A program made the translations under genes and the position numbers. The notes beneath the pieces were generated by a model, which was not told where the DNA came from, made no database searches, and was given only the letters and a program-made list of their open reading frames with translations. Of a stretch of 64,000 bases of DNA, positions 601 to 61,965 are shown piece after piece. The stretch comes from Pararoseomonas sp. SCSIO 73927 (lineage in GTDB: Bacteria > Pseudomonadota > Alphaproteobacteria > Acetobacterales > Acetobacteraceae), in NCBI RefSeq assembly GCF_037040815.1, contig NZ_CP146232.1:868001-932000 (forward strand), given 5' to 3'. The first letter of the stretch is position 1. The number at the start of each line of letters is the position of its first letter.

Positions 601-849
601 GTGGCCAGGGAGAGGAAGAAGGAATTCTTCCTCTCCCCGGACCCCTCATCATCATCTTCTTCTGGAAATCGGAATCATCCTGCTGACGGTGCGCCTCGGG
701 TCCACGACCCGAGGCGACTGCAAGGGCCGAACCAGCCCGCCCCAACGCGCACCAGCCCAGGTCAGTCCCCGCGGCAGCCCGATCGCGGGGTCCGGGGGGC
801 ACGTTTGCCCCCCGGTGGGGTGCAGGGGCAAAGCCCCTCCGTCACCCCA
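601..849 (+). repeat. Composite hairpin repeat, copy R1 (variant tail)
   Basis: First copy of the dispersed element, A side on the left. Hairpin A is 608-637 (13-bp stem GGGAGAGGAAGAA, loop GGAA). It is followed by a pyrimidine tract containing CATCATCTTCTTCT, then hairpin B at 692-716 (arms CCTCGGGTC and GACCCGAGG, loop CAC, plus two outer pairs) and the conserved GACTGCAAGGGC. The usual hairpins D and E are replaced by other stems: 792-815 (10-bp stem, loop CGTT), 824-838 (AGGGGC-AAA-GCCCCT) and an outer TGGGGTG/CACCCCA pair reaching 849. The tail overlaps the stop codon of the glutathionyl-hydroquinone reductase gene. It fills the gap between two convergent genes. Confidence 0.85.
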
Positions 850-1822
850 ACGCCTCCCGCCCATGCGGCGCGGAGAGATCCTGCTCCGGCCCGATCGGCA
901 CGATCCTCGTCGGGTTCACCGTCGGGTGGCTCTCGTAGTAGTGCCGCTTCATGTGCGTGAAATCGCAGGTCTCCCCGAAGCCCGGAGACTGGAACAGGTC
1001 GCGCAGGTACGGGAACAGCGCGGGGTAATCCGCGATCCGCCGCAGGTTGCACTTGAAGTGCCCGTGATAGACGGGGTCGAAGCGCACCAGTGTCGTGAAC
1101 AGCCGGACATCCGCCTCCGTCAGCACGTTGCCGACGAGGTAGCGCCGCGTGGCGAGATGCGCGTCCAGCTCGTCCAGTTTCGCGAACAGCGCCCGCGCCG
1201 CCTCCTCATAGGCCTCCTGCCGCGTCGCGAAGCCGGCCTTGTACACGCCGTTGTTCACCGCGTCGTAGATGCCGGCATTCATCGCGTCGATCTCCGCCCG
1301 CAGCGCCTCCGGGCAGTGGTCGCCGGGCCTCGCGCCCACGCCGTCGAAGGCGTGGTCCAGCATGCGGATGATCTCGGCGGATTCGTTGTTCACGATCGTG
1401 CCGCGCGCCTTGTCCCACAGCACCGGCACCGTCACGCGCCCGGTGTAGCGCGGGTCGGCCGCCGTATAGACCTGGTGCAGGAACCGCGCGTGGTTCACGG
1501 GGTCGGGGATCACGCCTGGCCCCTCCTCGAAGGTCCAGCCGTTCTCCTGCATCCGCCAGTGGACGACGGAGAGCCCGATCATCCCCTCCAGCCCCTTGCG
1601 CGTGCGCATGATCAGCGCCCGATGCGCCCAGGGGCAGGCGAGCGAGACGTAGAGATGATAGCGCCCGGGGTCGGCGGGGAAGCCGCCCTCCCCGCTCGGC
1701 CCGGGGCTGCCGTCCGCGGTGACCCAGTTGCGGTAGGCGCTGTCCTTGCGGACGAAGCGCCCGCCCGTCGCCTTGGTGTCGTACCACTGGTCCTGCCACC
1801 GGCCGTCCACGAGAAGTCCCAT
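842..1822 (-). CDS. Glutathionyl-hydroquinone reductase (GST superfamily, YqjG/PcpF type)
   Basis: 326 residues, the normal length of the family. The N-terminal thioredoxin-like domain carries the catalytic cysteine in SLACPWAHR (Cys63), the family hallmark, followed by an all-helical GST C-terminal domain. The enzymes reduce glutathionyl-hydroquinones to hydroquinones in the cytoplasm, a repair reaction for quinones that have reacted with glutathione. The ATG at 1822 lies only 5 bases beyond the stop of the DctP-like gene, so the two are probably cotranscribed. Proximity to 4-hydroxyphenylpyruvate dioxygenase suggests a link to quinoid intermediates of tyrosine breakdown, but that is inference. 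Confidence 0.88.
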   Translation of the reverse strand: MGLLVDGRWQDQWYDTKATGGRFVRKDSAYRNWVTADGSPGPSGEGGFPADPGRYHLYVSLACPWAHRALIMRTRKGLEGMIGLSVVHWRMQENGWTFEEGPGVIPDPVNHARFLHQVYTAADPRYTGRVTVPVLWDKARGTIVNNESAEIIRMLDHAFDGVGARPGDHCPEALRAEIDAMNAGIYDAVNNGVYKAGFATRQEAYEEAARALFAKLDELDAHLATRRYLVGNVLTEADVRLFTTLVRFDPVYHGHFKCNLRRIADYPALFPYLRDLFQSPGFGETCDFTHMKRHYYESHPTVNPTRIVPIGPEQDLSAPHGREALG

Positions 1823-1827
1823 GACCT

Positions 1828-2802
1828 TCAGCCCGCCCGGTAACTGTTGAGGATCGCCGCACCCTCGGCGCCGGCACGCGATGTCCAATCCGCCACCACG
1901 GGCGCGGCGGCGGCCGTGAGAGCGGCGCGCAGCGGGGCGCCGCCCGCCATCGTCACGCCGTTCGCGCGCATCCGCGCCTCGTTCTCCGCCAGCCGCGTGG
2001 CGATGGCCTGGAACTGCCGCGCCTCCGTCTCCCGCGCGGCCTGCTCCACATGGTCCTGCACGGGCTTGGGCAGAGCCCGCAGCTCGGCCGTGTTGCAGAA
2101 GGCGAGGCTGAGGGGAGAGGCGTAGTCCAGCACGGTGAAGTGCGGCAGGATCTCCCACAGCCGTGCCCCCGCTCCGCCATCGCCGGAGGACATCACCGCA
2201 TCCATCTCCCCTGCCCTCAGCCGGGGCAGCGCATCGGCGAAGGAGATCTGCGCGGGTTCCGCGCCCGCGTTCCGCATCGCCGCCGTGCTCGCCGCGTCAT
2301 AGGTGCGGACCTTCAGCCCGCGCAGCGCCTCCGCTCCGGAGACAGGGTTGCGGGACCAGAGGCCGGTGGCGGGCCAGGGCGTGGCGTAGAGCAAGGTGAC
2401 ACCGCGCGCCTCCAGCGCCGCCGCGTAGGCCGGGCGCGCCGCGCGCAGCAGCCGCGCCGTGTCCTCGGCGGAGGCGGTGAGGAAAGGGAGAGCGGAGAGC
2501 TGGAAGATCGGCGCCTCGCCCGCCAGGGCACCGGTGAAGGCATCGGCCGCCTGCACGCGCCCATCCGCGGCGGCGCGGATCATCGCGGCGGAGCGCAGCC
2601 CGTCCGGCGCGTCGAAACCCGGCGTCACGAGGAGCGCGCCGCCGGAGAGACGCGTCGCGCCCTCCGCGAAGCGGGCGATGCCCTCGCCCGGCATGGCGTT
2701 CGCCGGATACTCGGTGACGATGCGCCAGGATTCCGCCGCGCGGGCGGTGCCCGCCAGCCCCGCGGCAGGCAACAGGGAGAGAAGGGTACGGCGCGTCGGC
2801 AT
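1828..2802 (-). CDS. TRAP transporter substrate-binding protein, DctP family (orphan)
   Basis: 324 residues from an ATG at 2802 with GGAGGT seven bases upstream; the longer upstream frame lacks such a site. It starts with a signal peptide (MPTRRTLLSLLPAAGLAGTA). The mature part shows DctP-family features, including the region around residue 150 where an Arg (LWSRN) usually contacts a carboxylate ligand, and the later RAGEMDAV helix. It should bind an organic acid in the periplasm. No DctQ or DctM membrane subunits are nearby, so it either works with a distant partner or has another role. Downstream of hppD and upstream of the quinone reductase gene on the same strand. Confidence 0.75.
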   Translation of the reverse strand: MPTRRTLLSLLPAAGLAGTARAAESWRIVTEYPANAMPGEGIARFAEGATRLSGGALLVTPGFDAPDGLRSAAMIRAAADGRVQAADAFTGALAGEAPIFQLSALPFLTASAEDTARLLRAARPAYAAALEARGVTLLYATPWPATGLWSRNPVSGAEALRGLKVRTYDAASTAAMRNAGAEPAQISFADALPRLRAGEMDAVMSSGDGGAGARLWEILPHFTVLDYASPLSLAFCNTAELRALPKPVQDHVEQAARETEARQFQAIATRLAENEARMRANGVTMAGGAPLRAALTAAAAPVVADWTSRAGAEGAAILNSYRAG

Positions 2803-2869
2803 CGGGGGGACCTCCGGTTCGCCCGGAGTATCCTGCCCGGCGCCGCCGCGCCGCAAGCCGCCCCTCGGG

Positions 2870-3985
<1,116 letters not shown>

Positions 3986-4100
3986 GGAAGCCTCCTCAAG
4001 GATTATGGGAGGAGCCTACCGCGCGTCCCCCGCAAGTTGCGTGCGAACTGCGAGGCGAAACGCCTGCCCTTGCACGTTCCGTGCGTGCTAGACTCTCCCC
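3986..4100. promoter_or_regulatory. Divergent promoter region, hppD / Lrp-type regulator
   Basis: 115 bases between two divergent starts. The hppD ribosome-binding site (GAGGAGG as read on the minus strand) lies at the left end. A run of related segments (GTTGCGTGCGAAC and GTTCCGTGCGTGC) in the middle and right half is the best candidate for regulator binding, but the symmetry is imperfect and no operator can be assigned with confidence. Confidence 0.4.
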
Positions 4101-4586: not shown

Positions 4587-4594
4587 CCCGGGGC

Positions 4595-6145: not shown

Positions 6146-6168
6146 GACAGGCGAAACCGCAGCGCCCC

Positions 6169-6507: not shown

Positions 6508-6610
6508 GCGACCACCTCCACGATGCCGGATCCCCGGCGCCCGGAGAGTGCAGCGGGGCCGGGGAACGGGCAACCGGCGGGGCCTCCGCCCGGTTCCTCG
6601 CCGGCCCGCC

Positions 6611-6862
6611 GTGGCCAGAGGGAGGAAGAAGGAATTCTTCCTCCCTCCGGACCTCCCACCATCATCTTCTTCTTCGAGTTGGAGATCCTTCGTTGAAGGT
6701 GCGCCTCGGGTCGATGACCCGAGGCGACTGCAAGGGCGGGATGAGGCGCCCAGGCCTCGGCGCACCGGTTCCGTTCAATCCCGCGGCAGCCCCCTGGGGT
6801 TCCAAGGGCCTCAGGCCCTTGGCGGGTGAGGTCCGGAGAGGGCGGCGCCCTCTCCGGTCCCG
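6611..6862 (+). repeat. Composite hairpin repeat, copy R2
   Basis: Complete copy, A side left, in the 395-base gap between the small membrane protein and the exported-protein gene. Hairpin A 6618-6647 (arms GAGGGAGGAAGAA and TTCTTCCTCCCTC, loop GGAA); pyrimidine tract; hairpin B 6702-6726 (loop GAT); spacer with CCGCGGCAGCC; hairpin D 6802-6822 (CCAAGGGCC-TCA-GGCCCTTGG); hairpin E 6833-6857 (arms CCGGAGAGGGC and GCCCTCTCCGG). Relative to R1 the A stem has two compensating pair changes. The E end faces the stop codon of the gene at 6903; the A end lies upstream of the small membrane-protein gene. Confidence 0.9.
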
Positions 6863-6902
6863 CAACCGCAGGACAGGACCCGCCGGCAACCGCTCACGCC
6901 CC

Positions 6903-7361
6903 TCACCGCGCCGCGCCGTCCGGCACGCGGAAGTCCTCGTAGGCGGGGGAGACGGTGCGGCTGGCCCGCTCGACCTCCACGGTGATCACCACGCCGTTCG
7001 CCATGTCCACCAGGGCGAAGGGCCAGAACCCGTTGGCATCGGCAAGGCCCGCGTACAGCCGGCCGAAGTACCGGTCGGCGCCGCCATCCACGGCGTAGGG
7101 CAGCGCCACCGTCAGCACCGGGAAACGCCGCCCGTTGCACAGCTCCACCTTCACGATTTGCGCCCGGGCCGCCAGCAGCACCTCCCGCACCGGGTGCCTC
7201 CACGTCGCCAGGTCCACGGCCTCGCACCCCTGCACGGTCCTGGCGTATAGGGCGGTGGATGCCAGCTCGGGCGCGGGCGCCGCCAGGGCGGGCGCGCCGG
7301 CCAGGGCGTGCCCCAGGATGCCGCAGGCCGCCAGCGCGCGCCCGTATGCCTGTCCCATCAT
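6903..7361 (-). CDS. Exported protein of unknown function
   Basis: 152 residues. The ATG at 7361 is preceded by GGAGGATGG; a longer reading from 7412 is less likely because it would put a charged extension before the signal peptide. A signal sequence (hydrophobic about residues 8-28, ending ALAAPAP) is followed by a compact domain with one cysteine pair (GCEAVD and VELCNGR) and a C-terminal strand-rich half. No family recognised. It lies downstream of the response-regulator gene on the same strand, with the palindromic element at 7396-7499 between them. Confidence 0.65.
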   Translation of the reverse strand: MMGQAYGRALAACGILGHALAGAPALAAPAPELASTALYARTVQGCEAVDLATWRHPVREVLLAARAQIVKVELCNGRRFPVLTVALPYAVDGGADRYFGRLYAGLADANGFWPFALVDMANGVVITVEVERASRTVSPAYEDFRVPDGAAR

Positions 7362-7395
7362 CCATCCTCCGGCTCGGCCCGCACGCCCGGGCGCC

Positions 7396-20746: not shown

Positions 20747-21262
20747 ATGACCACACGGCGCAGCACCCTCGGCCTCGCGGCCGCACTCGCCCTCACGCCC
20801 GCGCTCGTCCGGGCGCAGGGAAGCGGTGCCCAGGGCATCGGCCTCGCGGAGCGCCGGGCCATCGCCGCCTACCGCCAGGAGAAGTACCCGGCGATCGAGC
20901 AGGGGATTCAGCAGGCCGCCGGCTTCGCCGTGCCGGTGGACGTGGAGTGGGACCAGCTCACCCTGCCCGGCGACGCGCCCTACTACGCGCGCGACGACTA
21001 CTTCGGGAAGACGATCTTCGAGCCGCTGACGGCGGCGCTGCGCGCCATCACCGCCGACGCGATGGGCCGCGACGCGCTGCGCGCGAAGCTGCAGCGAATC
21101 CACATCCGCTACGACGAGAAGACGGCCCCCGCCTCCAACTACCCGAACGGGCTCACCTTCGCGAACGGCACGCTCGGCATCAACTGGCGCCCCTACGCCA
21201 ACACCGCCGACGTGGCGGACCGCACGCAGGCCATCACGCAGCTCCTCGAGAAGAACCTCTGA
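20747..21262 (+). CDS. Exported (Tat-type signal) protein of unknown function
   Basis: 171 residues; GGGAGATCGCG precedes the ATG. A TRRSTLGLAAALAL signal with twin arginines suggests Tat export. The mature domain (AERRAIAAYRQEKYPAIEQGIQQAAGF, DVEWDQLTLPGDAPYYARDDYFGKTIFEPL) is hydrophilic and looks like a single compact fold. It may sit in a family of small periplasmic proteins I cannot name. A lone E-type hairpin follows 9 bases after its stop. Confidence 0.68.
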   Translation: MTTRRSTLGLAAALALTPALVRAQGSGAQGIGLAERRAIAAYRQEKYPAIEQGIQQAAGFAVPVDVEWDQLTLPGDAPYYARDDYFGKTIFEPLTAALRAITADAMGRDALRAKLQRIHIRYDEKTAPASNYPNGLTFANGTLGINWRPYANTADVADRTQAITQLLEKNL

Positions 21263-21271
21263 TCCCCGGGA

Positions 21272-21292
21272 CCAGGGGGCGCCGCCCCCTGG
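21272..21292 (+). repeat. Solitary E hairpin of the composite repeat
   Basis: CCAGGGGGC-GCC-GCCCCCTGG, a perfect 9-bp stem identical in form to hairpin E of copies R4 and R5, standing alone 9 bases after the stop codon of the Tat-type exported gene. Neither the A, B nor D hairpin is present nearby. It shows that module E can occur by itself, again directly downstream of a gene end. Confidence 0.65.
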
Positions 21293-21349
21293 TTCCCCCC
21301 CTGGTTCTCCCGGGCAGGCGCGAGGCGCCCGGCCCGGGGATCGACGCCG

Positions 21350-30055: not shown

Positions 30056-30724
30056 ATGCAGAACCCCGATCCCCCCTCGCCCTTCGCCGCCCATCCCGAC
30101 ACCGCGACGAAATCCCTCGGCGAAGCGCCCTTCATCCACCCCACCGCCGAGGTGCGGGACAGCCGCTTCGGCCGCTGGTGCGAGGTGGGCGCCCGCACCC
30201 GCGTGGCCGAGAGCCGCTTCGGCGACTACGCCTACGTCGTCAACGACAGCGACATCATGGGGGCGGAGATCGGCCCCTTCTGCTCCATCGCCGCGGGCGT
30301 CCGCATCAACCCCGGCAACCACCCGCTGGACCGGGTGGCGCTGAACCACTTCACGTACCGCTCCTCCGCCTACGGCCTCGGCGACGACGACGCCGCCCTC
30401 TTCGCCTGGCGCCGCAGCACGCCCGTCACCCTCGGCCCCGACGTCTGGGTCGGCCACGGCGCCATCATCCTGCCGGGCGTCACGGTCGGAACCGGCGCCG
30501 CTATCGGCGCCGGCGCCGTCGTCACGAAGGACGTGCCGGACTTCGCGATCGTCGTCGGCACCCCCGCCCGCGTGATCCGCCACCGCTTCCCGCCGGAGAT
30601 CATCGTCGCCCTCCACCGCATCGCCTGGTGGAACTGGCCGCACGAGAGACTGGGCAAAGCGATGCAGGATTTCCGCACCCTCGGCGCGGCCGCCTTCTGC
30701 GCGAAGCACGACCCGGGTGGCTGA
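30056..30724 (+). CDS. Left-handed beta-helix acetyltransferase (phosphonate-cluster type)
   Basis: 222 residues. Hexapeptide repeats run from about residue 25 ([35 protein letters not shown]) through [21 protein letters not shown] and [53 protein letters not shown] to a WWNWPHERL tail. The [22 protein letters not shown] segment and the tail are characteristic of hexapeptide transferases annotated in phosphonate-metabolism clusters. No phn gene is in the window, so the acceptor is unknown. Related enzymes transfer acetyl groups from acetyl-CoA as trimers. Confidence 0.8.
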
Positions 30725-30731
30725 CCGGTGC

Positions 30732-30974
30732 GGCCCCCAGGGGCTCCGCCCCCTGGACCCCCGCCAGGGGCCTGAGGCCCCTGGACCCCCATCCGGCTGC
30801 CGCCACGCCGTCCTGACGCGGGGTTACCGCATGAGGGGCCCGGCCCTGCCCCTGCAGTCGCCTCGGGTCATCGACCCGAGGCGCACCGTCAGCAGGGTAA
30901 AGCCAACTCGAAGAAGAAGATGATAGTGAGGGGTCCGGGGAGAGGAAGAATTCCTTCTTCCTCTCCCCGGGACA
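30732..30974 (-). repeat. Composite hairpin repeat, copy R3
   Basis: Complete copy in reverse orientation, between the convergent acetyltransferase and boxR genes. Hairpin E 30737-30756 (CCAGGGG/CCCCTGG); D 30764-30784 (CCAGGGGCC-TGA-GGCCCCTGG); B 30859-30883 (loop ATC); purine tract AGAAGAAGATGAT; A 30935-30970 with a 16-bp stem and loop TTCC, the longest A stem of the family. The E end starts within 15 bases of the acetyltransferase stop; the A end is 30 bases from the boxR stop. Confidence 0.9.
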
Positions 30975-31004
30975 TCCCGTCAGCGCCAGTCACGGCCCGC
31001 CCCG

Positions 31005-31910
31005 TCAGGCCGCCACATGCCCCAGCGGCCGCAGCATCAGCAGGTCCTGAAGGCTCTCCTGCACGCCGCGGCCGGAGGTATCCACGGTGAAGTCCGCCCG
31101 CGCGTAGAGCGCCTCCCGGCTCTCCAGGATCGCGCGCAGGTCGTCCATCGCCTGCCGGTTGTCGCGCATCGGCCGGGTGTCGCCCTGCTCGATCACCCGC
31201 CGCATGTGCTCCTCCGGCCCCGCGCGCAGCCAGATCGTGGTGCAACTGTCCAGCAGCAGCCCGTAGGTCGCGGGATCGGCCACGATGCCGCCGCCCGTCG
31301 CGATCACCGCCGGCCGGTCCTCCGCCACCAGCGCCTCCAGCGCCTTGCGCTCCAGCCGCCGGAACCCCTCCTGCCCGTGCAGGGCGAAGACGTCGGAGAG
31401 CTCCATCCGCCCCTCGCGCTCGATCTCCCGGTCCAGCTCCACGAAGCGGATCCCCAGCCGCTCCGCCAGCAGCCGCCCGAGCGTGGACTTGCCCGCGCCG
31501 CGCAGCCCGATCAGCGCGATGCGCTGCAGGCGCGATCCCGCCTCCGGCCGCACGAAGTGGCGCAGCAGCAGCTGCCGCGCCTCCGCCAGCCGCCCCTCCG
31601 GCAACTGGGACAGCACCTGACCCAGAAGCTGCCGCTCCACGCTGCCCTCCGGCCGCTCCGTCGTCAGCTCTTCCACCCCCACGCCCAGCGCCCGCGCGAT
31701 CCGCCGCAACAGCAGGATGGAGATGTTGCCGCTCCCCCCCTCTAGCTGCGCGATGTAGCGCTCCGACACGTGGGACAGGGCGGACAGGTCCCGCCGCGTG
31801 ACGCCGCGCCGGGCCCGGACGGTCCGCAGCCGGCCCCCGACCAGGCGCAGGAAGGCGGCGTCGGGCTCGTCGAGGGTTCGCTCGTTCTGCGAAGCGGGGG
31901 CGGGATTCAT
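31005..31910 (-). CDS. boxR: Benzoyl-CoA-responsive repressor BoxR (XRE HTH fused to shikimate-kinase-like domain)
   Basis: 301 residues. An XRE-type HTH occupies about residues 22-85 (GGRLRTVRARRGVTRRDLSALSHVSERYIAQLEGG). A shikimate-kinase-like domain runs from about 128 to the end, with an intact Walker A (GLRGAGKST, 135-143) and ELDREIERE and ATGGGIV motifs. This fusion defines the BoxR/BzdR regulators, which repress benzoate degradation genes and release DNA on binding benzoyl-CoA. It lies downstream of boxC-boxB-boxA and the thioesterase on the same strand (66-base gap), so it is probably in the operon it controls. Two TGCA-N6-TGCA sites in the cluster match the operator known for this family. 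It is not a biosynthetic AroK. Confidence 0.92.
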   Translation of the reverse strand: MNPAPASQNERTLDEPDAAFLRLVGGRLRTVRARRGVTRRDLSALSHVSERYIAQLEGGSGNISILLLRRIARALGVGVEELTTERPEGSVERQLLGQVLSQLPEGRLAEARQLLLRHFVRPEAGSRLQRIALIGLRGAGKSTLGRLLAERLGIRFVELDREIEREGRMELSDVFALHGQEGFRRLERKALEALVAEDRPAVIATGGGIVADPATYGLLLDSCTTIWLRAGPEEHMRRVIEQGDTRPMRDNRQAMDDLRAILESREALYARADFTVDTSGRGVQESLQDLLMLRPLGHVAA

Positions 31911-44583: not shown

Positions 44584-44660
44584 TGTTGCCGGTGTGGGCG
44601 GCATCATAACGCATGCCGCCGGGTCAGCGAGGCCCGTCCTCTTTTCTCGCCGGGCGCCCT

Positions 44661-44908
44661 GTGGCCAGGGAGAGGAAGAAGGAATTCTTCCTCTCCCCGG
44701 ACCCCTCTCCATCATCTTCTTCTAGGCTTTGGATTTGCTCGGCTGGCGGTGCGCCTCGGGTCGATGACCCGAGGCGACGGCCAGGGCAGGAAGAGGTCCA
44801 TCACGCGGAGACCCCGTCCCAGGACGGCGCGGCGGCAGCCAGATGGAGGTCCAGGGGCCTCAGGCCCTTGGCGGGGGTCCCAGGGGGCAGCGCCCCCTGG
44901 TCCCGAAC
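44661..44908 (+). repeat. Composite hairpin repeat, copy R4
   Basis: Complete copy, A side left, filling most of the 452-base gap between the livK promoter and the gene at 44935. Hairpin A 44668-44697 (arms as in R1); B 44752-44776 (loop GAT); a small C hairpin 44814-44827 (CCGTC-CCAG-GACGG); D 44851-44871 (CCAGGGGCC-TCA-GGCCCTTGG, with one G-T wobble); E 44880-44900 (CCAGGGGGC-AGC-GCCCCCTGG). The E end is 27 bases from the stop of the gene at 44935. The A end starts 178 bases upstream of livK. Confidence 0.9.
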
Positions 44909-44934
44909 CGATCAGAACAAGCCCACCCCCCTCA

Positions 44935-45570
44935 TCACGCCCCCCTGCGGAGCATGAAGATGGCCGAGTAGGCGGGCACGTCCACCTCGGCGCCGAGGGC
45001 GGCGACAGCCTCCCGGTGCCGCACCGCCGCCGCGCGCAGGGCGGCCTCGTCCGTCGCCTCGATCAGGAGCAGGCCGGCAAAGCTCCCGTCCCCGCCGCGC
45101 AGCGCCTTCTCGTTCGTCGCCATGTCGGAACCGTCCCGGTCCACGGTAAGCAGGCGCACGGCGCAAACCCGGTCTTCCCCCGCGATCGCGTCCAGGGAAG
45201 CGTCGGCGGGCGCTGCGCGCGGAAGGCGCATCGCCAGGATGTGCCCGCCCTGCCCCGTGCCGAACGCGCGCACCACCGGCCCACCACCCCGCGCGAAGTT
45301 CCGCAGCACCGGCATGGTGCGGCGGGACCAGGGCGTGGGTTCGTTCAGCCGGGCCAGATAGGCTGCGCTCGTCAGCACCGCCGCGGAGGAAAGGTCGTAG
45401 AGGATGAGATACCGGCACACGCCGTCGAGGCCGGCGCGGAACACGCGCACGCCCTCGAAGCCGGGGATGCCCACCCGCTCCGCCGTGTGCTCGCGGGTCA
45501 GCCAGTGCAGGTAGTCCGTCTCATCGGCCGGATCGACGTCGCTCCAGATCGCGAGCAGCCCGTTCGCCAT
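44935..45570 (-). CDS. Conserved protein of unknown function, ferredoxin-like fold suspected
   Basis: 211 residues, no signal. Two similar halves can be made out: GLLAIWSDVDPADETDYLHWLTREHTAERVGIPGFEGVRVFRA and a C-terminal GSFAGLLLIEATDEAALRAAAVRHREAV. The first half resembles EthD/DUF4286-type dimeric alpha/beta barrel proteins ('W...d..ee.yl.Wl..EH..er..ipGF...R.fr'). Such proteins often accompany tripartite-tricarboxylate-type receptors. It follows the receptor gene, with a strong hairpin between them. Function unknown. Confidence 0.65.
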   Translation of the reverse strand: MANGLLAIWSDVDPADETDYLHWLTREHTAERVGIPGFEGVRVFRAGLDGVCRYLILYDLSSAAVLTSAAYLARLNEPTPWSRRTMPVLRNFARGGGPVVRAFGTGQGGHILAMRLPRAAPADASLDAIAGEDRVCAVRLLTVDRDGSDMATNEKALRGGDGSFAGLLLIEATDEAALRAAAVRHREAVAALGAEVDVPAYSAIFMLRRGA

Positions 45571-45637: not shown

Positions 45638-45640
45638 CAC

Positions 45641-49272: not shown

Positions 49273-50712
49273 ATGTCCGAAGCCACCGGGGTGGAGGGGG
49301 ACAGCACCGCACCCGCCCCGCCCCTGCCGGCGGGGGGCAGCGGCGTCGCCGTAGTGCCGGACGGGCTGGTGGCCTTCGCCGCCCGCTGCCGCGCCGCCCG
49401 CGAGGCGCGGGAGAGCCTGGACCTCCTCTACTACATCTGGCGCGACGACCTGACCGGCCGCCTCCTGGCGCGGGAGGTGCTCCGCGCCGCCGCCCGCGGC
49501 GTGCGCGTGCGCCTCCTCCTGGACGACATGTACGCCCTCGGCCGGGAACGCGTGCTCTCCGTGTTGGACGCCCACCCGCATGTCGAGGTGCGCCTGTTCA
49601 ACCCTACCCGCTGGCGCCGCTTCGGCCAGGCCGGGATGGTGCTGGAGATGCTCTTCGGCGGGCGCCACCTGAACCGGCGCATGCACAACAAGGCCTGGAT
49701 CGCCGATGGCCGCGTCGCCGTGGTCGGCGGCCGCAACGTCGGCGACGAGTACTACGACGCCTCCGGCGCCTTCAACTTCCGCGACCTCGACCTCGTCCTC
49801 GCCGGCCAAGCCGTGCGCGACGTGCAAGCGGTGTTCGAGCGCTACTGGCGCCACCCCCTAGCCCGGCCCGTGCGGCGCGCCAGCGGCCTGCGCCCGCGCC
49901 CCGGCCGCCTCGCCGCCCTCACCCGCCGCCTGGACATGACCGCGGCCGGAGAGGGCGCCCAGCCCTTCCTCGAAGGCCTGAAGGCCGATCCCGGCGTGGC
50001 CCGCACCCTGGAAGGCGACGGCTCCGCCCTCACCCCCCTCCCCCGCGAGGCCGTCCGCGTGGTCGCGGACCCGCCCGACAAGGTCCTCTCCAGGGCCGCG
50101 ATGAAGGAGTGCCTCGCCCCCGCCATCCTGGAGGCCCTGCAGGAGGCCCGCCACGAAGCCCTCCTCATCTCCCCCTACTTCGTGCCGGGGGAGGAAGGCG
50201 TGGCGGTGCTGGAAGGCCTGGCGCGGAACGGCGTCCGCGTGGCCGTCGTCACCAACTCCCTTGCCGCGACCGACGTGGTGGCGGTCCACGGCGGCTACGC
50301 CCGCCACCGCCCCCACCTGCTGGACGCGGGGATCGAGCTCTACGAGCTGAAGCGCTCCGGCAAGGAATCCGCCGGCGTCTTCGGCTCCCGCGGCGCCAGC
50401 CTGCACACCAAGGCCCTGGTCGTGGACGGCGCCCACGCCTTCGTCGGCTCCTTCAACCTCGACCCCCGCTCGGCCACCCTCAACACGGAAATGGGCGTCT
50501 TCGTCCGCCACGCCGCCCTCGGCGACGCCGTGCAGGAGGAGTTCGCCCGCCTTTCCGACCCCGCCCGCAGCTGGAAGGTGACGCGGGGCACCGAGGGCGG
50601 CCTGTGCTGGAACGGCCCCGACGGAACCGTGACCTCCGAACCGGACGCCTCCCTTCGCCGCCGCGCCCTGGCCTGGCTGGTGCGCTGGCTGCCGATCGAA
50701 TCCCAGCTCTGA
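49273..50712 (+). CDS. Phospholipase D-family protein (cardiolipin synthase-like)
   Basis: 479 residues, no clear membrane helix. Two HKD motifs: HNKAWIADGRVAVVGGRNVGDEYY near residue 139 and HTKALVVDGAHAFVGSFNLDPRS near residue 378. Architecture fits ClsC-type cardiolipin synthases or related phosphatidyl transferases, which join two phospholipids. The preceding EEP gene parallels the E. coli ymdB/clsC-like and ybhP-clsB pairing, where an EEP protein (YbhP) precedes ClsB. Envelope phospholipid synthesis is the likely role. Confidence 0.85.
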   Translation: MSEATGVEGDSTAPAPPLPAGGSGVAVVPDGLVAFAARCRAAREARESLDLLYYIWRDDLTGRLLAREVLRAAARGVRVRLLLDDMYALGRERVLSVLDAHPHVEVRLFNPTRWRRFGQAGMVLEMLFGGRHLNRRMHNKAWIADGRVAVVGGRNVGDEYYDASGAFNFRDLDLVLAGQAVRDVQAVFERYWRHPLARPVRRASGLRPRPGRLAALTRRLDMTAAGEGAQPFLEGLKADPGVARTLEGDGSALTPLPREAVRVVADPPDKVLSRAAMKECLAPAILEALQEARHEALLISPYFVPGEEGVAVLEGLARNGVRVAVVTNSLAATDVVAVHGGYARHRPHLLDAGIELYELKRSGKESAGVFGSRGASLHTKALVVDGAHAFVGSFNLDPRSATLNTEMGVFVRHAALGDAVQEEFARLSDPARSWKVTRGTEGGLCWNGPDGTVTSEPDASLRRRALAWLVRWLPIESQL

Positions 50713-50718
50713 GGTGTC

Positions 50719-50963
50719 CGGAACCAGGGGGCGCCGCCCCCTGGAACCCCCGCCAAGGGCCTGAGGCCCTTGGATCCCCATCTGGCTGCCGCCACGCCGT
50801 CCTGAGACGGTGTCTCTGCCTGACGGGCCTCCTCCTGCCCTTGCAGTCGCCTCGGGTCGTCGACCCGAGGCGGACCGTCAGCAGGGTGATCCCAACTCCT
50901 AGAAGAAGATGATGGAGAGGGGTCCGGCGAGAGGAAGAATTCCTTCTTCCTCTCCCCGGGACA
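50719..50963 (-). repeat. Composite hairpin repeat, copy R5
   Basis: Complete reverse-orientation copy between the convergent phospholipase-D and 5-oxoprolinase genes. E 50724-50744 (CCAGGGGGC-GCC-GCCCCCTGG); D 50753-50773 (CCAAGGGCC-TGA-GGCCCTTGG); C near 50796-50814 (CCGTC-CTGA-GACGG); B 50848-50872 (loop GTC); A 50924-50959 (stem with one C-C mismatch, loop TTCC). The E end starts 7-12 bases after the phospholipase-D stop. Confidence 0.9.
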
Positions 50964-50996
50964 TCCCGTCAGCCCGGGAGCAGGAACGCCCGCACA

Positions 50997-53900
50997 TCAC
51001 CCCGCCCGTTGGCCAACCGACCCGAACCCACCCCCGGTCGGCGTCACGATCGTCACCGCCTCCCCTGACGCCAGGGCCGAGCGCGCGCACCCCGCCAGCA
51101 CCTCCTCGCTCCCGTCCAGCCGCCGCACGAGGTTGCGCCCGCACTCCCCCGCCTCCCCGCCGAACAGCCCGGGCGGAGGCACCTCCCGATGCCCCGCCAG
51201 GATGGCGACCTCCATATCCTCCAGGAACCGGATCACCCGCCGCGTCCCATCCCCCGCGCGCCACTTGCCGCGCCCGCCGGACCCCTCGCGCACGGAGAAC
51301 TCCTCCAGCACCACGGGGAATCGCGTCTCCAGGATCTCCGGGTCCGTCAGCCGGGAATTCGTCATGTGCGTCTGCACCGCCGGCGCCCCGTCGAACCCCT
51401 CCCCCGCCGGCGCGCCGGAGCAGATTGTCTCGTAGTACTGATAGGCCGCGTTCCCGAAGGTCAGGTTGTTCATCGTGCTCTGCGCCGGCGCGAGCGACCC
51501 CACGGCCGCCAACAGGCATGACGTCACCGCCTGCGACACCTCCACATTCCCCGCCACCACCGCCGCCGGCCACTGCGGCGCCAGCATGGAGTTCTCCGGC
51601 ACCACGATCCGGATCGGCCGCAGGCAGCCCGCATTCATCGGGATGTCGGAATCCACCAGCAGCCGGAACGCGTAGAGCACCGCCGCCCGCGTCACCGGCT
51701 TCGGCGCGTTGAAGTTGTCGGGCTGCTGAGGCGACGTCCCCGTGAAGTCCACGGTCGCCTCCCGCGCCGCATGATCCACGCTGATCCGTACCTGCACACG
51801 CCGCCCGGAATCCATCGCGTAGTCGAAGGAAGCCTCTGCCGGCAGCTTGTCCAGCGCCCGCCGCACGCTCTCCGCCGCATTGTCCTGCACATGCGCCATG
51901 TAGGCGTGCACGACATCCTCGCCGAAGCTGTCCACCGCCCGCAGCAGCTCCGCCGCCCCGCGCGAGTTCGCCGCCACCTGCGCCTTCAGGTCCGCGATGT
52001 TCTGCGCCGGGTTCCGCGCCGGATACGCCGCCCCCGTCAGCAGCCCCAGCGCCGCTTCCTCCTGGAAGCGCCCGCCCTGCACGAGATGAAGGTTGTCGAT
52101 GTAGACCCCTTCCTGCTCGATCGTCGTCGCGTCCGGCGACATCGACCCCGGCGCCGTCCCGCCGACATCCGCGTGATGCCCGCGCGAGGCCACCCAGAAG
52201 ATCACCTTCCCCGCCCGGTCGAACACAGGCGTGCAAACCGTGATGTCCGGCAGATGCGTCCCGCCATTGTAGGGCGCGTTGATCGCCCAGGAATCCCCCG
52301 GCCGCGGCTCCGGGTTCGCCCGGATCACGCTCTCCACGCTCCCGTCCATCGAGCCGAGATGCACGGGGATATGCGGCGCGTTGGAGACCAGCCCGCCCTC
52401 CGCGTCGAACACCGCGCAGGAGAAGTCCAGCCGCTCCTTGATGTTCACGGAGCTCGCCGTGTTCTGCAGCGCCACCCCCATCTGCTCCGCGATGGAGCGG
52501 AACAGATTATTGAAGATCTCCAGCATCACCGGATCCGCCTCGGTGCCCAGCGCCACCCCGCGCGGCAGCGCCTCCACCCGATCCATCACCAGGTGATCGG
52601 CCTCCGTCAGCACCACCGACCATCCCGGCTCCACCACCACCGTCTGGTTCGGCTCGATCACCAGCGCCGGCCCGCGCAGCGCCTGCCCCGCGCGCAAGGC
52701 TTCCCGCGCGTAGACCTTCGCCTCGTGCCACGCCCCGCCGGAGAACACCCGCGTCGTCCGCACCGCCTCCGCCGAAGCGTCGCCCACGGCGCGCCCGCCC
52801 GGCGCTGCGGCCGCACCGCCACCCGCGGCCTCCGCCACCCCCGCTTCCACAACCACGTCCCGCGAAGGATCGGTGAACCCGAACCGCGCCAGATGCGCCG
52901 CCTCGAACGCCTCGCGCAGAGGCCCCGCCCGCAGCGCGCCCACCGCCTCACCGCCCGCCAGTTCCGCCCCCGGCACCTCCAGCGGCGTATCCGTCCCCGC
53001 ATAGCGCAGCAGCAGCGCAATCCGCGTGCTCAGAGCACCGGCATCCACCCCCTGCCCCAGCACCTCCGCCCGCGCCTCGTCCGCCAGCCCCTGCAAGGCC
53101 GGCACGCACCCCGCCAACCCCTCGTCGCTCAATGCCCGGTCCAGCGTCCGCTGCCGCACCGCCCGGATATCCGCCAGCCCCATCCCATAGGCGGAAAGCA
53201 GCCCGGAGAACGGATGGATCAGCACCCGCGTCATCGCCAGCGCATCCGCCACCAGGCAGGCGTGCTGCCCCGAAGCCCCGCCGAACGCATTCAGCACGTA
53301 CTTCGTCACGTCATAGCCGCGCTGCACGGAGATCGTCTTGATCGCCTCCGCCATCCCCGCCACCGCGATCCGCAGCGCCCCATCCGCCACCGACTCCGGC
53401 GAGTGCCCGCCGCCTAACTCGGCAGCCAGCGCCGCAAACTTCTCCCGCACCACCTCCGCGTCCAGCGGCTGGTCCTGCCCCGCCCCGAATATCGCCGGGA
53501 ACAGCTCCGGCACCAGCTTCCCCGTCATCACGTTGCAGTCGGTCACCGTCAGCGGCCCACCGCGCCGATACGCCGCCGGCCCGGGATCCGCCCCCGCGCT
53601 CTCCGGCCCAACCCGCAGCCGCCCGTCCTGGTACCGCACGATGGACCCACCACCCGCCGCCACCGTATGGATCAGCATCATCGGCGCCCGCATCCGCACG
53701 CCCGCGACCTCCGTCTCCAGCGCCCGCTCGAACTGCCCGGCGTAATGCGCGACATCGGTGGAGGTCCCCCCCATGTCGAACCCGATCACCCGCTCGAACC
53801 CGGCCTCCGCCCCCGTCCGCGCCAGTGCCACCACGCCGCCCGCAGGCCCGGACAGGATCGCATCCCGCCCCTGGAACAGCGACGCCGCCGTCAGCCCACC

Positions 53901-54696: not shown

Positions 54697-54750
54697 CCGG
54701 GGAGAAGGAATTCTCCCCGGACCCCTCATCTTTTTCTCTCGGGCTGCCGC
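54697..54750 (+). repeat. Truncated composite repeat, copy R8 (A module only)
   Basis: CCGGGGAGAA-GGAA-TTCTCCCCGG (54697-54720), a perfect 10-bp A-type hairpin with the same GGAA loop and central GAATTC, followed by ACCCCTCATCTTTTTC, the A-module pyrimidine tract. Hairpins B to E are missing, though GGGCTGCCGCGG right after resembles part of the spacer. It lies in the 116-base gap between the 5-oxoprolinase start and the pncC/cinA stop, oriented so that the missing E side would face the pncC stop. Confidence 0.75.
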
Positions 54751-54754
54751 GGCC

Positions 54755-55234
54755 TCAGCGGGACAGCGCGCTCTCAAGCAGCAGCACCGCCGCCTCCGCG
54801 AAGGCCTCCATGTTCGCCCCCCGGTCGCCGGAACCCGTCTCCACCGTTCGCACCAATGCCACCGGCCCCGCCACCGCCAGGCACGCATGCCCCGCCGCAT
54901 CGCCGTAGCGGTTCCCCGAAGGCCCCGCCGCCCCCGTCTCTGCCACCCCCCAATCCGCCCCTAGCCGCGCCCGCACCCGTTCCGCCATCAGCGCCGCATA
55001 GGCCTCGGTCGAAGGCCGCATTCCCGCCATGTCCTCGGGCGAAATCCCCAGCAATCCCTGCCGCGCGGCGGCGGTGTAAACCACGCCCCCGCCCAGAAAG
55101 AACGCCGAGGCCCCCGGCACGGCCAGCAACCGCGCCGAGACCAGCCCGCCCGCCGAAGACTCCGCCACCGCCACCCGCTCCCCGCGCGCGGCCAGCAGCG
55201 CCCCGACCCGCGCCGCCGCCAAGGCCGCGCTCAC
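54755..55234 (-). CDS. pncC: Nicotinamide-nucleotide amidohydrolase (PncC/CinA C-terminal domain)
   Basis: 159 residues from GTG 55234 in a GTGA overlap with the ABM gene. CinA C-terminal hallmarks: VAVAESSAGGLVSARLLAVPGASAFFLGGGVVYT, ETGAAGPSGNRYGDAAGHACLAVAGP and a final helix. It hydrolyses NMN to nicotinate mononucleotide and ammonia in NAD recycling. The N-terminal CinA domain is absent, as in stand-alone PncC proteins. Confidence 0.88.
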   Translation of the reverse strand: MSAALAAARVGALLAARGERVAVAESSAGGLVSARLLAVPGASAFFLGGGVVYTAAARQGLLGISPEDMAGMRPSTEAYAALMAERVRARLGADWGVAETGAAGPSGNRYGDAAGHACLAVAGPVALVRTVETGSGDRGANMEAFAEAAVLLLESALSR

Positions 55235-57025: not shown

Positions 57026-57074
57026 TCTCCGGCCGGAAGCGACGTCGCCCGCAGCCCGGGCAAGCCTTCCGCGG

Positions 57075-57710: not shown

Positions 57711-57941
57711 CGTCCCGCCTCCTCAAGCCTCCCGCAGGCCGTGTTCTCATTCTCTCCGCCACAACAAGTCTAGCCGAAGGGCGTTGTTGCGCAATCAGGT
57801 CGGGCCGGCGGGCCTCCGGCGACGCCCCGCAACCCATGTCCCGGCCACGCCCTCCCCTTCACAACACCATCGCCACCCACGCCGAGGCCGCCGTGAACAG
57901 GGCCATCGCCGCCGCCTGACCCAACCTCCCGGCGGGCGCCG

Positions 57942-58586: not shown

Positions 58587-58679
58587 CCTGCCGCTCCCAC
58601 CCCCGCCCCCTCCAGTCACGATCCCCCCATGCAACGCGCGCCATTCCGGCCCCGCGCCCTTTCCGCTAAGCCCCCCGCC

Positions 58680-60080
58680 ATGCGCTACGTCTCCACACGC
58701 GGCGAGGCCGCCCCCCGCGACTTCGAATCCGTCCTCCTGGCCGGCCTGGCCGAGGATGGCGGCCTCTTCCTGCCGGAGACCTGGCCCGTCCTCACCACGG
58801 ACGACTGGGAGGAGCTGCGCGGCCTCCCCTACCCCGCTCTCGCCGCCCGCATCATCCGCCTCTTCACCGGCAGCACCTTCGAGGACGGCGTCCTGGAAGC
58901 CATGTGCGCCGACGCCTACGCCGGCTTCACCACCCCCGCCGTCGCCCCCCTGGTCCAGCTGGACCACCGCCGCTTCGCGCTGGAGCTGTTCCACGGCCCC
59001 ACCCTCGCCTTCAAGGACTTCGCCCTCCAACTCCTCGGCAGGATGTTCGACCACGTCCTCGCCCGCCGCGGGGAGCGCATCACCATCGTCGGCGCCACCT
59101 CCGGCGACACCGGCTCCGCGGCCATCGAGGCCTGCAAGGGCCGCGAGAACCTCGACATCGTCATCCTCCACCCGGAAGGCCGCACCAGCCCCGTCCAGCG
59201 CCGGCAGATGACCACCGTCCTCTCCCCCAACGTCCGCAACATCGCCGTCCAGGGCGACTTCGACGCCTGCCAGGACCTGGTGAAGGCGATGTTCAACGAC
59301 GCCCCCTTCCGGCGGGAGATGAACCTCTCCGCCGTCAACTCCATCAACTGGGCCCGCATCGCCGCCCAGATCCCCTACTACGTCGCCTCAGCCCTCGCGC
59401 TCGGCGCCCCGCAGTGCGAGATCGCCTTCGCCGTCCCCACCGGCAACTTCGGCAACGTCTTCGCCGCCTGGGCCGCCCGCCGCATGGGCCTGCCCGTCTC
59501 CACCCTCATTGTCGGCGCCAACCGCAACGACATCCTCGCCCGCTGGATCGCGGAGAACGACATGACGGCCCAGCCCGTCACCCCCAGCCTCTCCCCCAGC
59601 ATGGACATCCAGGTCTCCTCGAACTTCGAGCGCCTGCTCTTCGAGCTCCTCGGCCGCGACGGCGCGAGAACCGCCACCGCCATGCGCGCCTTCCGCGACA
59701 CCGGCCGCATGCCGATCGACGAGCGCACCTGGCGCGCCGCCACCGCCCTGTTCCGCGGCCACGCCGTGTCGGACGAGGAGACGATCGCCGAAATGCGCCG
59801 CCTCCACGCCCAGAACTACCCCGCCGACCCCCACACCGCCGCCGGCACCGCCGCCAGCCACGCCGCCCCGCCGGACAACCCCGCCACCCCCATCATCATC
59901 GCCGCCACCGCCCACCCCGCGAAGTTCCCGGACGCGGTCGAACAGGCCACCGGCACCCGCCCCGCCCTCCCGCCCCACATGGCCGACCTCTACGAGCGCG
60001 AGGAGCGCTTCACCGTCCTCCCCAACGACCTGCACGCGATCGAGACCGCCGTCCGCGCCCACGCCCGCCGCAACGGCTGA
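58680..60080 (+). CDS. thrC: Threonine synthase
   Basis: 466 residues, the longer bacterial (class II) form. PLP Lys112 in HGPTLAFKDFALQLLGRMF; GATSGDTGSAAIEACKG holds the PLP phosphate; FAVPTGNFGNVFAAWAARRMG and SMDIQVSSNFERLLFELLGRD complete the family pattern. Converts O-phosphohomoserine to threonine. The 3' end is followed within 11 bases by repeat copy R6. Confidence 0.96.
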   Translation: MRYVSTRGEAAPRDFESVLLAGLAEDGGLFLPETWPVLTTDDWEELRGLPYPALAARIIRLFTGSTFEDGVLEAMCADAYAGFTTPAVAPLVQLDHRRFALELFHGPTLAFKDFALQLLGRMFDHVLARRGERITIVGATSGDTGSAAIEACKGRENLDIVILHPEGRTSPVQRRQMTTVLSPNVRNIAVQGDFDACQDLVKAMFNDAPFRREMNLSAVNSINWARIAAQIPYYVASALALGAPQCEIAFAVPTGNFGNVFAAWAARRMGLPVSTLIVGANRNDILARWIAENDMTAQPVTPSLSPSMDIQVSSNFERLLFELLGRDGARTATAMRAFRDTGRMPIDERTWRAATALFRGHAVSDEETIAEMRRLHAQNYPADPHTAAGTAASHAAPPDNPATPIIIAATAHPAKFPDAVEQATGTRPALPPHMADLYEREERFTVLPNDLHAIETAVRAHARRNG

Positions 60081-60085
60081 CCCGC

Positions 60086-60334
60086 GGCCCCCAGGGGGCC
60101 TTGCCCCCTGGACCCCCACCAGGAGCCTGAGGCTCCTGGACCTGCATCGGGCTACCGCGGAACTGACCTGATAGGTCAGCCCTCTACGCTCGGCACAACG
60201 TCCTGCCCTGGCCGTCGCCTCGGCTCCACGAGCCGAGGCGCGCTGTCAGCAGAGTCCAGACCAACTCAAAGAAGAAGATGATGGTGAGGGGTCCGGGGAG
60301 CGGAAGAATTCCTTCTTCCTCTCCCTGGCCACGG
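60086..60334 (-). repeat. Composite hairpin repeat, copy R6
   Basis: Complete reverse-orientation copy in the 332-base gap between thrC and the MHS transporter. E 60091-60111 (CCAGGGGGC-CTT-GCCCCCTGG); D 60119-60139 (CCAGGAGCC-TGA-GGCTCCTGG); a C hairpin near 60164-60180 (CTGACCT-GAT-AGGTCAG); B 60216-60240 with changed arms CCTCGGCTC and GAGCCGAGG; A 60293-60328 (two mismatches, loop TTCC). Stems D and B keep full pairing despite sequence change relative to the other copies. The E end is 11 bases from the thrC stop. Bases 60335-60412 hold no visible promoter. Confidence 0.9.
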
Positions 60335-60412
60335 ACCGCCCCCACAGGACCGCCCCCTTCCACCCCCACCCCCGATCGGCGCACCCTCCGGAACCACCGA
60401 CAGGGCGCCCCC

Positions 60413-61696
60413 GTGACCGAGAAGCCAGGCATCTCCCGCGCCTCCATGGCGGTCGCGGCCCTCTCCACCGTGGTCGAGTGGTACGACTTCACCCTCTACC
60501 TCTACCTCGCCACCGTCCTCTCCCGCGTCTTCTTTGGCGGCGGCGACACCTCCCTCGCCCTGGCCCTCGGCGGCTTCGCCGTCGCCTACCTCATGCGCCC
60601 CCTCGGCGCCGCCGTCCTCGGCCATGTGGGAGACCGCTACGGCCGCCGCCGCATGATGCTCCTCTCCATGGCGCTGATGACGGCCGCCATGCTCGCCACC
60701 GCCCTCCTCCCCACCCACGCGCAGATCGGCCCCGCCGCCGCCTGGCTCCTGCTCCTCCTCCGCTGCGTCATGGGCTTCTCGGTGGGCGGCGAGTACACCG
60801 GCGTCGTCGCCTACCTTCTCGAAGGCGCAAGGCCGGAGCGCCGCGGCCTCGTCACCTCCTTCGCCGCCGCCGCCAGCGAAGTCGGCGCCCTCCTCGCCGC
60901 CGCCGTCGCCGCCCTCACCGTCAGCGCGATGAGCCCCGCCGCCCTCGATTCCTGGGGCTGGCGCATCCCTTTCCTCCTCGGCGCCGCCCTCGCCGCCACC
61001 GTCTGGATCGCCCGCTCCCTCATGCAGGAATCCCCGGATTTCGAGCGCCAGGAGGCGCGCGGCACCGTCCCCCACAATCCCCTGCGCCACGCCCTCACCC
61101 ACCACCGCGCCGCCATCGCCCGCGGCTTCGCCATCTCCGCGCTGGGCTCCATCACCTACTACGTCGGCATCACCTACGTGCCCGCCTTCCTCGCAGGCGC
61201 CTCCCCGATGAGCGAGGCGGAGGCCCTCTGGCTCTCCACTGCCGCCGCCCTCGTCGTCATCCTCGTCACGCCCTTCACCGGCCTCCTCTCGGACCGGTAC
61301 GGCCGCAAGCCCGTCCTCCTCGCCGTCTGCCTCTCGGCAGCGGTCCTCCCCATCACCCTCTTCTCCCTCATGGCCGGCGCCTCCCACGGATGGGCCACCC
61401 TCGGCGCGTTGGTCCTCGCCGCCGTCGGCGGCGCGATGAGCGCCGTCGGCGCCGTCGCCACGGCGGAACAATTCCCCGGAGAGGGCCGCCTCAGCGGTCT
61501 CGCCCTCGGCGCCACCACGGCAACCGCGATCTTCGGCGGCCTCGCCCCCTACCTCGCCCAGGAACTCATGGGCCGCACCGGCTCGCCCCTGGTCCCCGGC
61601 ATCATGATCGCCGCCGTCGCCGCCGCCGTCCTGCCGGTCTTCCTCGCCATGCCGGAATCCCGCCCAGCCCCGCGCCGGCCGGGAAGGTCGCCCTGA
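60413..61696 (+). CDS. MFS transporter, metabolite:H+ symporter (MHS) family
   Basis: 427 residues from GTG 60413, 12 membrane helices. MHS landmarks: the start VAALSTVVEWYDFTLYLYLATVLSRVFF, motif A GHVGDRYGRRRMMLLSM, CVMGFSVGGEYTGVVAYLLEGARPERRG, the WRIPFLLGAALAATVWIARSLMQESPDF segment and a second motif A LLSDRYGRKPVLL. Relatives (ProP, KgtP, ShiA) import osmolytes or organic acids with protons; substrate here unknown. Flanked on both sides by composite repeats R6 and R7. Confidence 0.9.
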   Translation: MTEKPGISRASMAVAALSTVVEWYDFTLYLYLATVLSRVFFGGGDTSLALALGGFAVAYLMRPLGAAVLGHVGDRYGRRRMMLLSMALMTAAMLATALLPTHAQIGPAAAWLLLLLRCVMGFSVGGEYTGVVAYLLEGARPERRGLVTSFAAAASEVGALLAAAVAALTVSAMSPAALDSWGWRIPFLLGAALAATVWIARSLMQESPDFERQEARGTVPHNPLRHALTHHRAAIARGFAISALGSITYYVGITYVPAFLAGASPMSEAEALWLSTAAALVVILVTPFTGLLSDRYGRKPVLLAVCLSAAVLPITLFSLMAGASHGWATLGALVLAAVGGAMSAVGAVATAEQFPGEGRLSGLALGATTATAIFGGLAPYLAQELMGRTGSPLVPGIMIAAVAAAVLPVFLAMPESRPAPRRPGRSP

Positions 61697-61712
61697 TCCT
61701 CCAACGACCCGC

Positions 61713-61965
61713 CGTGGCCAGAGGGAGGAAGAGGGAAGTCTTCCTCCCTCCGGACCTCCCGCCATCATCTTCCTCTTCGAGTGGGAGTCGTCCCGCGGAC
61801 AATGCGCCTCGGGTCGATGACCCGAGGCGACCGGAAGGGCAGGATCAGGGCGCTGGGATCCGGCCCACCGGTTCAGGCCGGTCCCGCGGCAGCCAGAAGG
61901 GGGTCCAGGGGCCTCAGGCCCCTGGCGGGCGAGGTCCGGAGAGGGCGGCGCCCTCTCCGGTCCCG
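61713..61965 (+). repeat. Composite hairpin repeat, copy R7
   Basis: Complete copy, A side left, in the 344-base gap between the convergent MHS-transporter and YdcF genes. A 61721-61750 (12-bp stem, loop GGGAAG; the central GAATTC is lost here); B 61805-61829 (loop GAT); C hairpin near 61867-61882 (ACCGG-TTCAGG-CCGGT); D 61905-61925 (CCAGGGGCC-TCA-GGCCCCTGG); E 61936-61960 (arms CCGGAGAGGGC and GCCCTCTCCGG, as in R2). The E end is 76 bases from the YdcF stop; bases 61966-62040 hold nothing recognisable. Confidence 0.9.

Follow-up and report, generated by a model that had tools for sequence, protein, structure and literature searches.

What is the non-coding repeat that recurs seven times within 64 kb of the chromosome of Pararoseomonas sp. 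SCSIO 73927, and what holds it in place between genes? The stretch analysed here, hereafter the window, covers 64,000 nucleotides (positions 868001-932000 of the chromosome, C1, in a genome of 5.59 Mb) and carries seven copies, R1 to R7, of a unit of about 250 bp with at least four hairpins. The original prediction, made from the window alone, described this unit but missed three of its properties: a link to the 3' ends of genes, the presence of short hairpins at empty sites in a relative, and clustering around the likely replication origin. Tentatively, we read the element as a genus-level family resembling miniature inverted-repeat transposable elements (MITEs) that has become established as a two-way 3'-end module, acting as a terminator or barrier.

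The copies share an ordered series of hairpins

All seven copies were recovered at their predicted positions by BLAST and alignment. In BLAST searches against the window, each matched the other six at 72-87% identity over 237-356 bp, with E-values between different copies of 3e-36 to 4e-77, and a covariance model of the A-to-B part, built from 47 copies, scored R1-R7 at 133-152 bits. The predicted order was present in seven of seven aligned copies: an A hairpin with a GGAA loop, a pyrimidine tract resembling CATCATCTTCTTCT, a B hairpin, a variable spacer, and hairpins D and E. R1 does differ in its tail, having a distinct D/E end. The spacer ends in CGGCAGCC (CGGTAGCC in R6) and, in the A-first alignment, GCGGCAGCC (GCGGTAGCC in R6) stands between the spacer and the D hairpin. 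Three unpaired blocks, CATCATCTTCTTCT, GCGACTGC and GCGGCAGCC, are strongly conserved. These results support the proposal of a single dispersed, coherent, non-coding intergenic family with ordered hairpins.

Folding and covariation both point to maintained structure. For R4, the fold was better than those of its dinucleotide shuffles by 5.3 standard deviations for one strand and by 4.7 for the other. Over the whole element, 21 of 46 predicted pairs had changed on both sides with pairing kept (52 copies, 8 genomes). For the A and B stems, 9 of 25 pairs had changed on both sides compared with 2.9 in shuffles; 98.5% of cells in these two hairpins pair, the number of cells changed at both positions is 34 (3.9 in shuffles), and the signal vanished when pairing partners were slid. 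Stem exceptions in all four hairpins comprised 43 G.U and 41 A.C cells (by pairs, 23 show a G.U and 20 an A.C), and because a G.U on one strand is an A.C on the other, neither strand is favoured at face value. The test is uneven: a single A-stem pair accounts for 17 of the 41 A.C cells, and without it the count becomes 43 G.U to 24 A.C, and the D and E exceptions lean to the A-first strand by 27 to 10.

At the cut-off used, the A module was found 60 times inside full copies and 10 times outside, and the B module 61 times inside and never outside. Assembly of the element from generic single hairpins is not supported, since A and B rarely occur alone, although the strict E-value probably undercounts lone hairpins resembling D or E.

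The copies had been thought to lack transposon ends, which proved wrong. Among 78 anchored copies, a good part share an imperfect motif, approximately GTYCTG-N4-GTCCGG-N4-CCAGGG, between the left end and the reverse complement of the right end; it was read by eye, without a statistic, and many right ends do not show it. Written separately, the left end reads GRTYCTGCGNGTCCGG-N4-CCAGGG and the reverse complement of the right end GTYCTG-N4-GTCCGG-N4-CCAGGG. Symmetric relatives at L072 3446-3696, L076 12495-12691 and L092 9816-10019 carry the A-type hairpin and pyrimidine tract inverted at the other end. Terminal inverted repeats, one mark of a MITE, are therefore present in imperfect form, together with symmetric copies that have an A hairpin and tract at both ends. 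These symmetric relatives are possibly the ancestral form, and the common form appears to be derived, with D and E in place of the second A end.

About 130 copies lie in the genome

Copies were counted in every second 20-kb stretch of C1 (137 stretches, half the chromosome), in 20 kb of C2 and throughout C3 and C4; the genome counts below refer to this half-sample. A profile built from the seven window copies gave 86 matches at E < 1e-3, of which 66 spanned more than 180 model positions and were counted as full copies. Every one lay on C1. The genome therefore holds about 130 full copies. The first estimate of several hundred was too high, having been extrapolated from a window in a copy-rich domain. 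When 1313 intergenic gaps of at least 50 bp were compared all against all (matches of at least 45 bp at E 1e-6), a single repeat family with four or more members emerged, and this was the element, in 79 gaps.

Copies lie at the 3' ends of genes

Genes were called with an iterated gene finder, which recovered the stop codons of all ten Pfam-backed window genes used as a check. We could classify 63 of the 66 copies by their flanking genes, the other three being too close to stretch ends. Gaps between convergent genes hold 36 of the 63 copies and make up 18% of intergenic sequence (P = 5e-12), whereas gaps between divergent genes hold 2 of 63 and make up 29% (P = 1.5e-7). The remaining 25 copies lie in tandem gaps, where the 3' end of the upstream gene faces the E end in 15 and the A end in 10. 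At least one gene runs into 61 of the 63 copies: from both sides in 36, from the E side only in 15 and from the A side only in 10. Copies are intergenic, as predicted, and mostly at gene 3' ends; two overlap a called gene by 54 bp. The element is a gene-end element.

Stop codons lie close to the repeat. Measured on model coordinates, which may err by some bases, the stop codon of a gene that runs in lies no more than 30 bp from the model end in 44 of 51 cases on the E side and 36 of 46 on the A side, and in 15 cases the A-side stop lies exactly 16 bp before the model A start. Of 38 A-side TGA stops, 15 read TGATCC, compared with 98 of 1727 for other genes and 1 of 37 for E-side stops; these letters may or may not belong to the element, since in the sister genome G014 the TCC after the A-side stop is already there at one site and not at another. 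In all seven window copies a gene runs into the E end, which had suggested an E-first sense strand; the half-genome count, with genes running into the E end in 51 of 63 copies and the A end in 46 of 63, gives no ground for this.

The family appears to be renewed within lineages and varies between species

With one copy as a DNA query, we found the family in eight of the 15 genus genomes: full-length matches were many in this genome, G001 (which appears to be Roseomonas aerilata DSM 19363), G002, G006, G007, G011 and G014, and there was one in G008. The other seven genomes of the genus gave short matches or none, and other genera gave no full-length match among the candidates scored (at most 19 per genome). 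A covariance model search of 200 Acetobacteraceae genomes, in which at most 17 candidates were scored for each genome, gave only weaker matches in other genera, at 33-52 bits and in 12 genomes. Among them, A-to-B model matches in G135, G189, G132, G187 and G148 possibly represent distant families of the same kind.

The consensus differs by species, for example in the CCTCCGGTC/GACCGGAGG B stem of five G002 copies. For 69 of the 71 copies of this genome the nearest match lay within the same genome, a figure to be read with the thin sampling of relatives in mind; the nearest match was a copy of this genome for 3 of 5 copies from G014 and 4 of 4 from G006. At the two shared sites with letters to compare, orthologs were less alike than best paralogs in this genome (86.5% versus 93.7% at L010, 83.3% versus 91.3% at R5), which suggests that copying or conversion within a genome renews the copies. 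Identity to the nearest paralog reached 97.6%.

We placed 17 copies against G014, namely window copies R4-R7 and those of L071, L098 and L102. Four are absent from G014, and three lie where synteny is broken or disturbed. Conversely, one G002 copy (L053) occupies a site that lacks the element in this genome, so that presence and absence at orthologous sites, a second mark of a MITE, is seen in both directions. At a site where G002 has a copy, a short run of tandem repeats of about 29 bp takes its place in this genome (L090 8527-8614). All four G014 sites without the element carry a short GC hairpin. At L102 5003, both convergent stop codons are conserved in G014, where they lie about 47 nt apart; here a whole element lies between them. 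The G014 hairpin at L071 6182 is similar to the E end of the element.

Synteny with G014 ends at or beside 5 of the 17 copies (R4, R5, R7, L071 14958 and L071 18761), which suggests that the repeats may also mark or promote rearrangements. Ortholog searches found close orthologs of the MFS gene beside R7 in G014 and G006 and none close for the kinase-like gene. Among 80 loci examined, only that of R. aerilata showed the element.

A possible two-way 3'-end module or selfish repeat

How might these observations fit together? In the account we tentatively favour, a hairpin-tipped, non-coding inverted-repeat family of about 250 bp would have spread, with renewal taking place independently in each lineage, and its copies would persist at gene 3' ends as exchangeable two-way modules. 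Entered from either side, the GC-rich terminal hairpins would fold in the nascent RNA and either stop transcription or shield the end of the mRNA, and convergent genes would thereby be kept from running into each other. Mobility as such, gain over loss as the usual direction of change, and a terminator or barrier function are what we infer rather than observe.

In this genome, a stem of at least 9 is present in 28% of 169 element-free convergent gaps (3% when shuffled). Only 1 of the 34 such stems with enough sequence after them has five or more T in the next 9 nt; as convergent 3' hairpins are mostly without T runs, a missing U tract alone does not exclude a 3'-end role for the element. Read inward, a C-rich stretch separates the A hairpin from the CATCATCTTCTTCT tract.

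Several observations weigh against a two-way 3'-end module. By eye, neither the A nor the E hairpin is followed by a T run when read outward, so the element does not qualify as a canonical intrinsic terminator; elsewhere in the genome T runs do occur, after 16 of 123 tandem-gap stems. Visual inspection of the four sites read, where exact ends are uncertain, showed no obvious target-site duplication, and no autonomous partner was found, Y1_Tnp being the only mover searched for. Turnover is moderate, with 10 of the 17 placed copies (2 of them partial) common to G014. At L102 12394, the element in this genome is separated from the next gene by a different short stretch that looks like a hairpin. 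At the R6 site, the G002 alignment extends about 80 bp into the E/D end of R6, and on the 3' side of the threonine synthase gene R. aerilata has a copy too (L189 11424-11672); its orientation is opposite to that of R6, which still requires two events there and in this respect speaks for the account. Given the G002 alignment and the R. aerilata copy, loss in G014 is possible at R6; deletion in G014 is equally possible at L071 6182 because its hairpin resembles the E end. The polarity of change could accordingly be gain or loss at these sites. Our confidence in the account is slightly reduced by the G002 alignment at R6 and by the unevenness of the strand test, to the slight benefit of the selfish and small-RNA rivals. 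No version bearing an open reading frame was noticed among 20 partial profile matches with gene neighbours in the half-sample, where the neighbours were not identified.

The chief rival, which we consider unlikely though well short of fanciful, is that the element is a purely selfish repeat with no job, inserting widely and surviving next to stop codons since elsewhere it damages genes or promoters. A similar bias towards tail-repeat-tail positions in Pseudomonas fluorescens was explained as the 'least worst' location by Silby et al. 2009 (PMC2718517), and both the avoidance of divergent gaps and the lack of a clear strand preference among stem exceptions suit such a repeat. A bystander, however, should leave the old hairpin in place, and at the three absent sites with an unrelated G014 hairpin we did not see, by eye, that hairpin beside the element here. 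Compensatory changes that keep the stems also argue against it, although copying from structured masters could do likewise. Finally, a selfish repeat leaves unexplained the clustering of copies around the origin, in which convergent gene pairs (175 near the origin, 232 far) and ordinary 3' hairpins are not so concentrated.

Copies cluster around the probable replication origin

The origin region was placed by two indicators only, a parS motif and the GC-skew minimum. Just two sites, at 1,656,637 and 1,660,242, match the parS consensus GTTTCACGTGAAAC with at most one mismatch, and cumulative GC skew reaches its minimum near 1.48 Mb. No convincing dif site was found in the sampled half. The copies centre on this region: 59 of 66 lie at 0.5-2.5 Mb, and the concentration on C1 spans about 0.68-2.54 Mb with abrupt edges. 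Within 1 Mb of the parS pair lie 60 of the 66 copies and 50 of the 137 sampled stretches (36% of the sample; P = 3e-20). The distribution is nearly symmetric, with 34 copies to the left of the origin and 32 to the right, and it ends sharply: the bin 0.75-1.00 Mb from the origin holds 14 copies and that of 1.00-1.25 Mb none.

Two further counts agree. Of the 79 members from the de novo repeat search, 72 lay near the origin, compared with 507 of 1313 gaps, and in a whole-genome list of the top 40 matches, independent of sampling, 34 lay near. Ordinary 3' hairpins were not clustered (57 of 328 near the origin, 106 of 555 far). Local hopping is not supported as the cause, because similarity between copies does not fall with distance (Mantel r 0.07). 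In G014, the copies listed lie mostly on three contigs totalling about 680 kb, a hint only, as part of the candidates was scored. Neither a 3'-end module nor a selfish repeat explains the origin clustering.

These results raise a further explanation, which we consider improbable as an account of the family: that it marks an origin domain of about 2 Mb, nearly symmetric on parS, with about nine tenths of the copies and edges near 0.9-1.0 Mb. The copies would then be binding or anchoring sites in chromosome organisation or fork protection, or would have spread by a process limited to the origin half, gene ends being merely tolerated. The concentration around parS, its left-right balance, the empty bin beyond it, the two further counts and the lack of support for local hopping all speak for such a domain. 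Six outlying copies speak against it, as they lie 1.5-2.4 Mb away and are good copies (190-277 bits), so the family has access to other parts of the chromosome as well. No protein is known to bind the copies, the origin itself was placed only by motif and skew, and repeat-poor variable regions may suffice to produce the pattern, like the repeat deserts of P. fluorescens (PMC2718517).

A multicopy small-RNA gene family or a one-strand regulatory RNA would suit the conserved unpaired blocks CATCATCTTCTTCT, GCGACTGC and GCGGCAGCC, the stable folds and the A-first lean that appears, mostly in D and E, once one A-stem pair is left out, but it is highly improbable given that flanking genes enter at either end, that exceptions over all pairs are even and that the element has no Rfam match in the window.

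Relation to known repeat families

The original prediction knew of no named family that matches. No Rfam family matched in the window and no description of the element turned up in a search of open-access papers, which bears this out. The element is best filed as a MITE-like intergenic hairpin repeat, and the closest known kind is the tail-to-tail intergenic repeats of P. fluorescens. Of these, R0, R1, R2 and R6 are 80-177 bp long, with repeats of 24-43 bp round a variable core (Silby et al. 2009, PMC2718517). Like the element, they form hairpins, are in some cases MITE-like with inverted-repeat ends, reach up to hundreds of copies in strain-specific families, favour tail-repeat-tail positions (here 36 of 63 copies are convergent) and are unevenly distributed with deserts (PMC2718517). 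The element differs in its length of about 250 bp and its ordered, separate hairpins, a comparison made by description. The deserts of P. fluorescens are many and separate (60 intervals of 16-176 kb; PMC2718517), whereas here nearly everything outside one origin-centred domain is poor in copies. The sections of that paper on which this comparison draws make no mention of a simple hairpin at empty sites.

The likeness to REP and BIME elements is more general. REPs measure 20-40 bp and bear a GTAG or CGTC tag, and they are extragenic palindromes found mostly between convergent or tandem genes (PMC3733652). At about 250 bp with at least four hairpins, the element is much longer, as had been noted, and its A and B modules rarely stand alone. 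A mobilising gene of the RAYT type had been suggested as something to look for, and mobilisation by RAYT has no support: Y1_Tnp was found in none of the 15 genomes of the genus, in a search that was positive in 5 of 14 control genomes.

Among alphaproteobacterial repeats, CIR of Caulobacter and Brucella is about 110 bp long with a conserved GANTC, and resembles the element in being intergenic, in lacking an open reading frame and in having two hairpin arms and a linker (Chen and Shapiro 2003, as reviewed in PMC2229807). Only 20 of 66 copies of the element contain any GANTC, at no common place, and the CIR signature of GANTC in an exposed loop was not found. For Correia/NEMIS elements, in which only the 155-bp species has an IHF site, none of 66 copies matched an IHF consensus. 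On these signatures, membership of CIR or NEMIS is not supported. Rhizobium-specific intergenic mosaic elements are shorter and have two palindromes; we set them apart by description. They too are alphaproteobacterial, intergenic and palindromic (PMC2873474).

The copies of the window

The outer limits of all copies given here are approximate. R1 (584..845, + strand) has its A end at the left and fills the space from the stop of a + strand gene at 583 to a - strand GST gene ending at 842; it is the copy with the variant D/E tail. R2 (6595..6872, +), also with its A end at the left, occupies a tandem gap downstream of the - strand gene 6903-7361. R3 (30725..30990, -) has its E end at the left, where a + strand hexapeptide-repeat protein gene ends at 30724, and a - strand shikimate-kinase-like gene ends at 31005 on its other side. 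R4 (44645..44925, +), with its E end at the right, lies downstream of the - strand gene 44935-45570 and upstream of a periplasmic-binding-protein gene. R5 (50713..50985, -), a copy that is also in G014, lies between a + strand PLD-like gene ending at 50712 and a - strand hydantoinase/oxoprolinase gene ending at 50997. R6 (60081..60360, -) abuts the threonine synthase stop at 60080; its site is empty in the sister genome G014, and the R. aerilata copy is inverted. R7 (61697..61985, +) follows a + strand MFS transporter gene that ends at 61696, with a - strand DUF218 gene ending at 62041.

Two smaller pieces emerged from BLAST. A partial eighth copy (54697..54763, +) consists only of an A-type hairpin and tract and scored 34 bits with the covariance model (E 5e-6). 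At 21258-21304, a lone E-like hairpin lies beside the 3' end of gene 20747-21262.

Implications for chromosome biology

To our knowledge, an origin-centred distribution is unusual for an interspersed repeat, and it raises the question of what restricts this one to about one third of the chromosome. If the family does mark an origin domain, its copies may serve, for example, as two-way roadblocks that separate convergent transcripts where replication forks overlap most. The species differences provide natural presence/absence pairs, in which a multi-hairpin element of 250 bp in one species faces a short hairpin in its sister, so that the effect of the repeat on transcript ends is testable.

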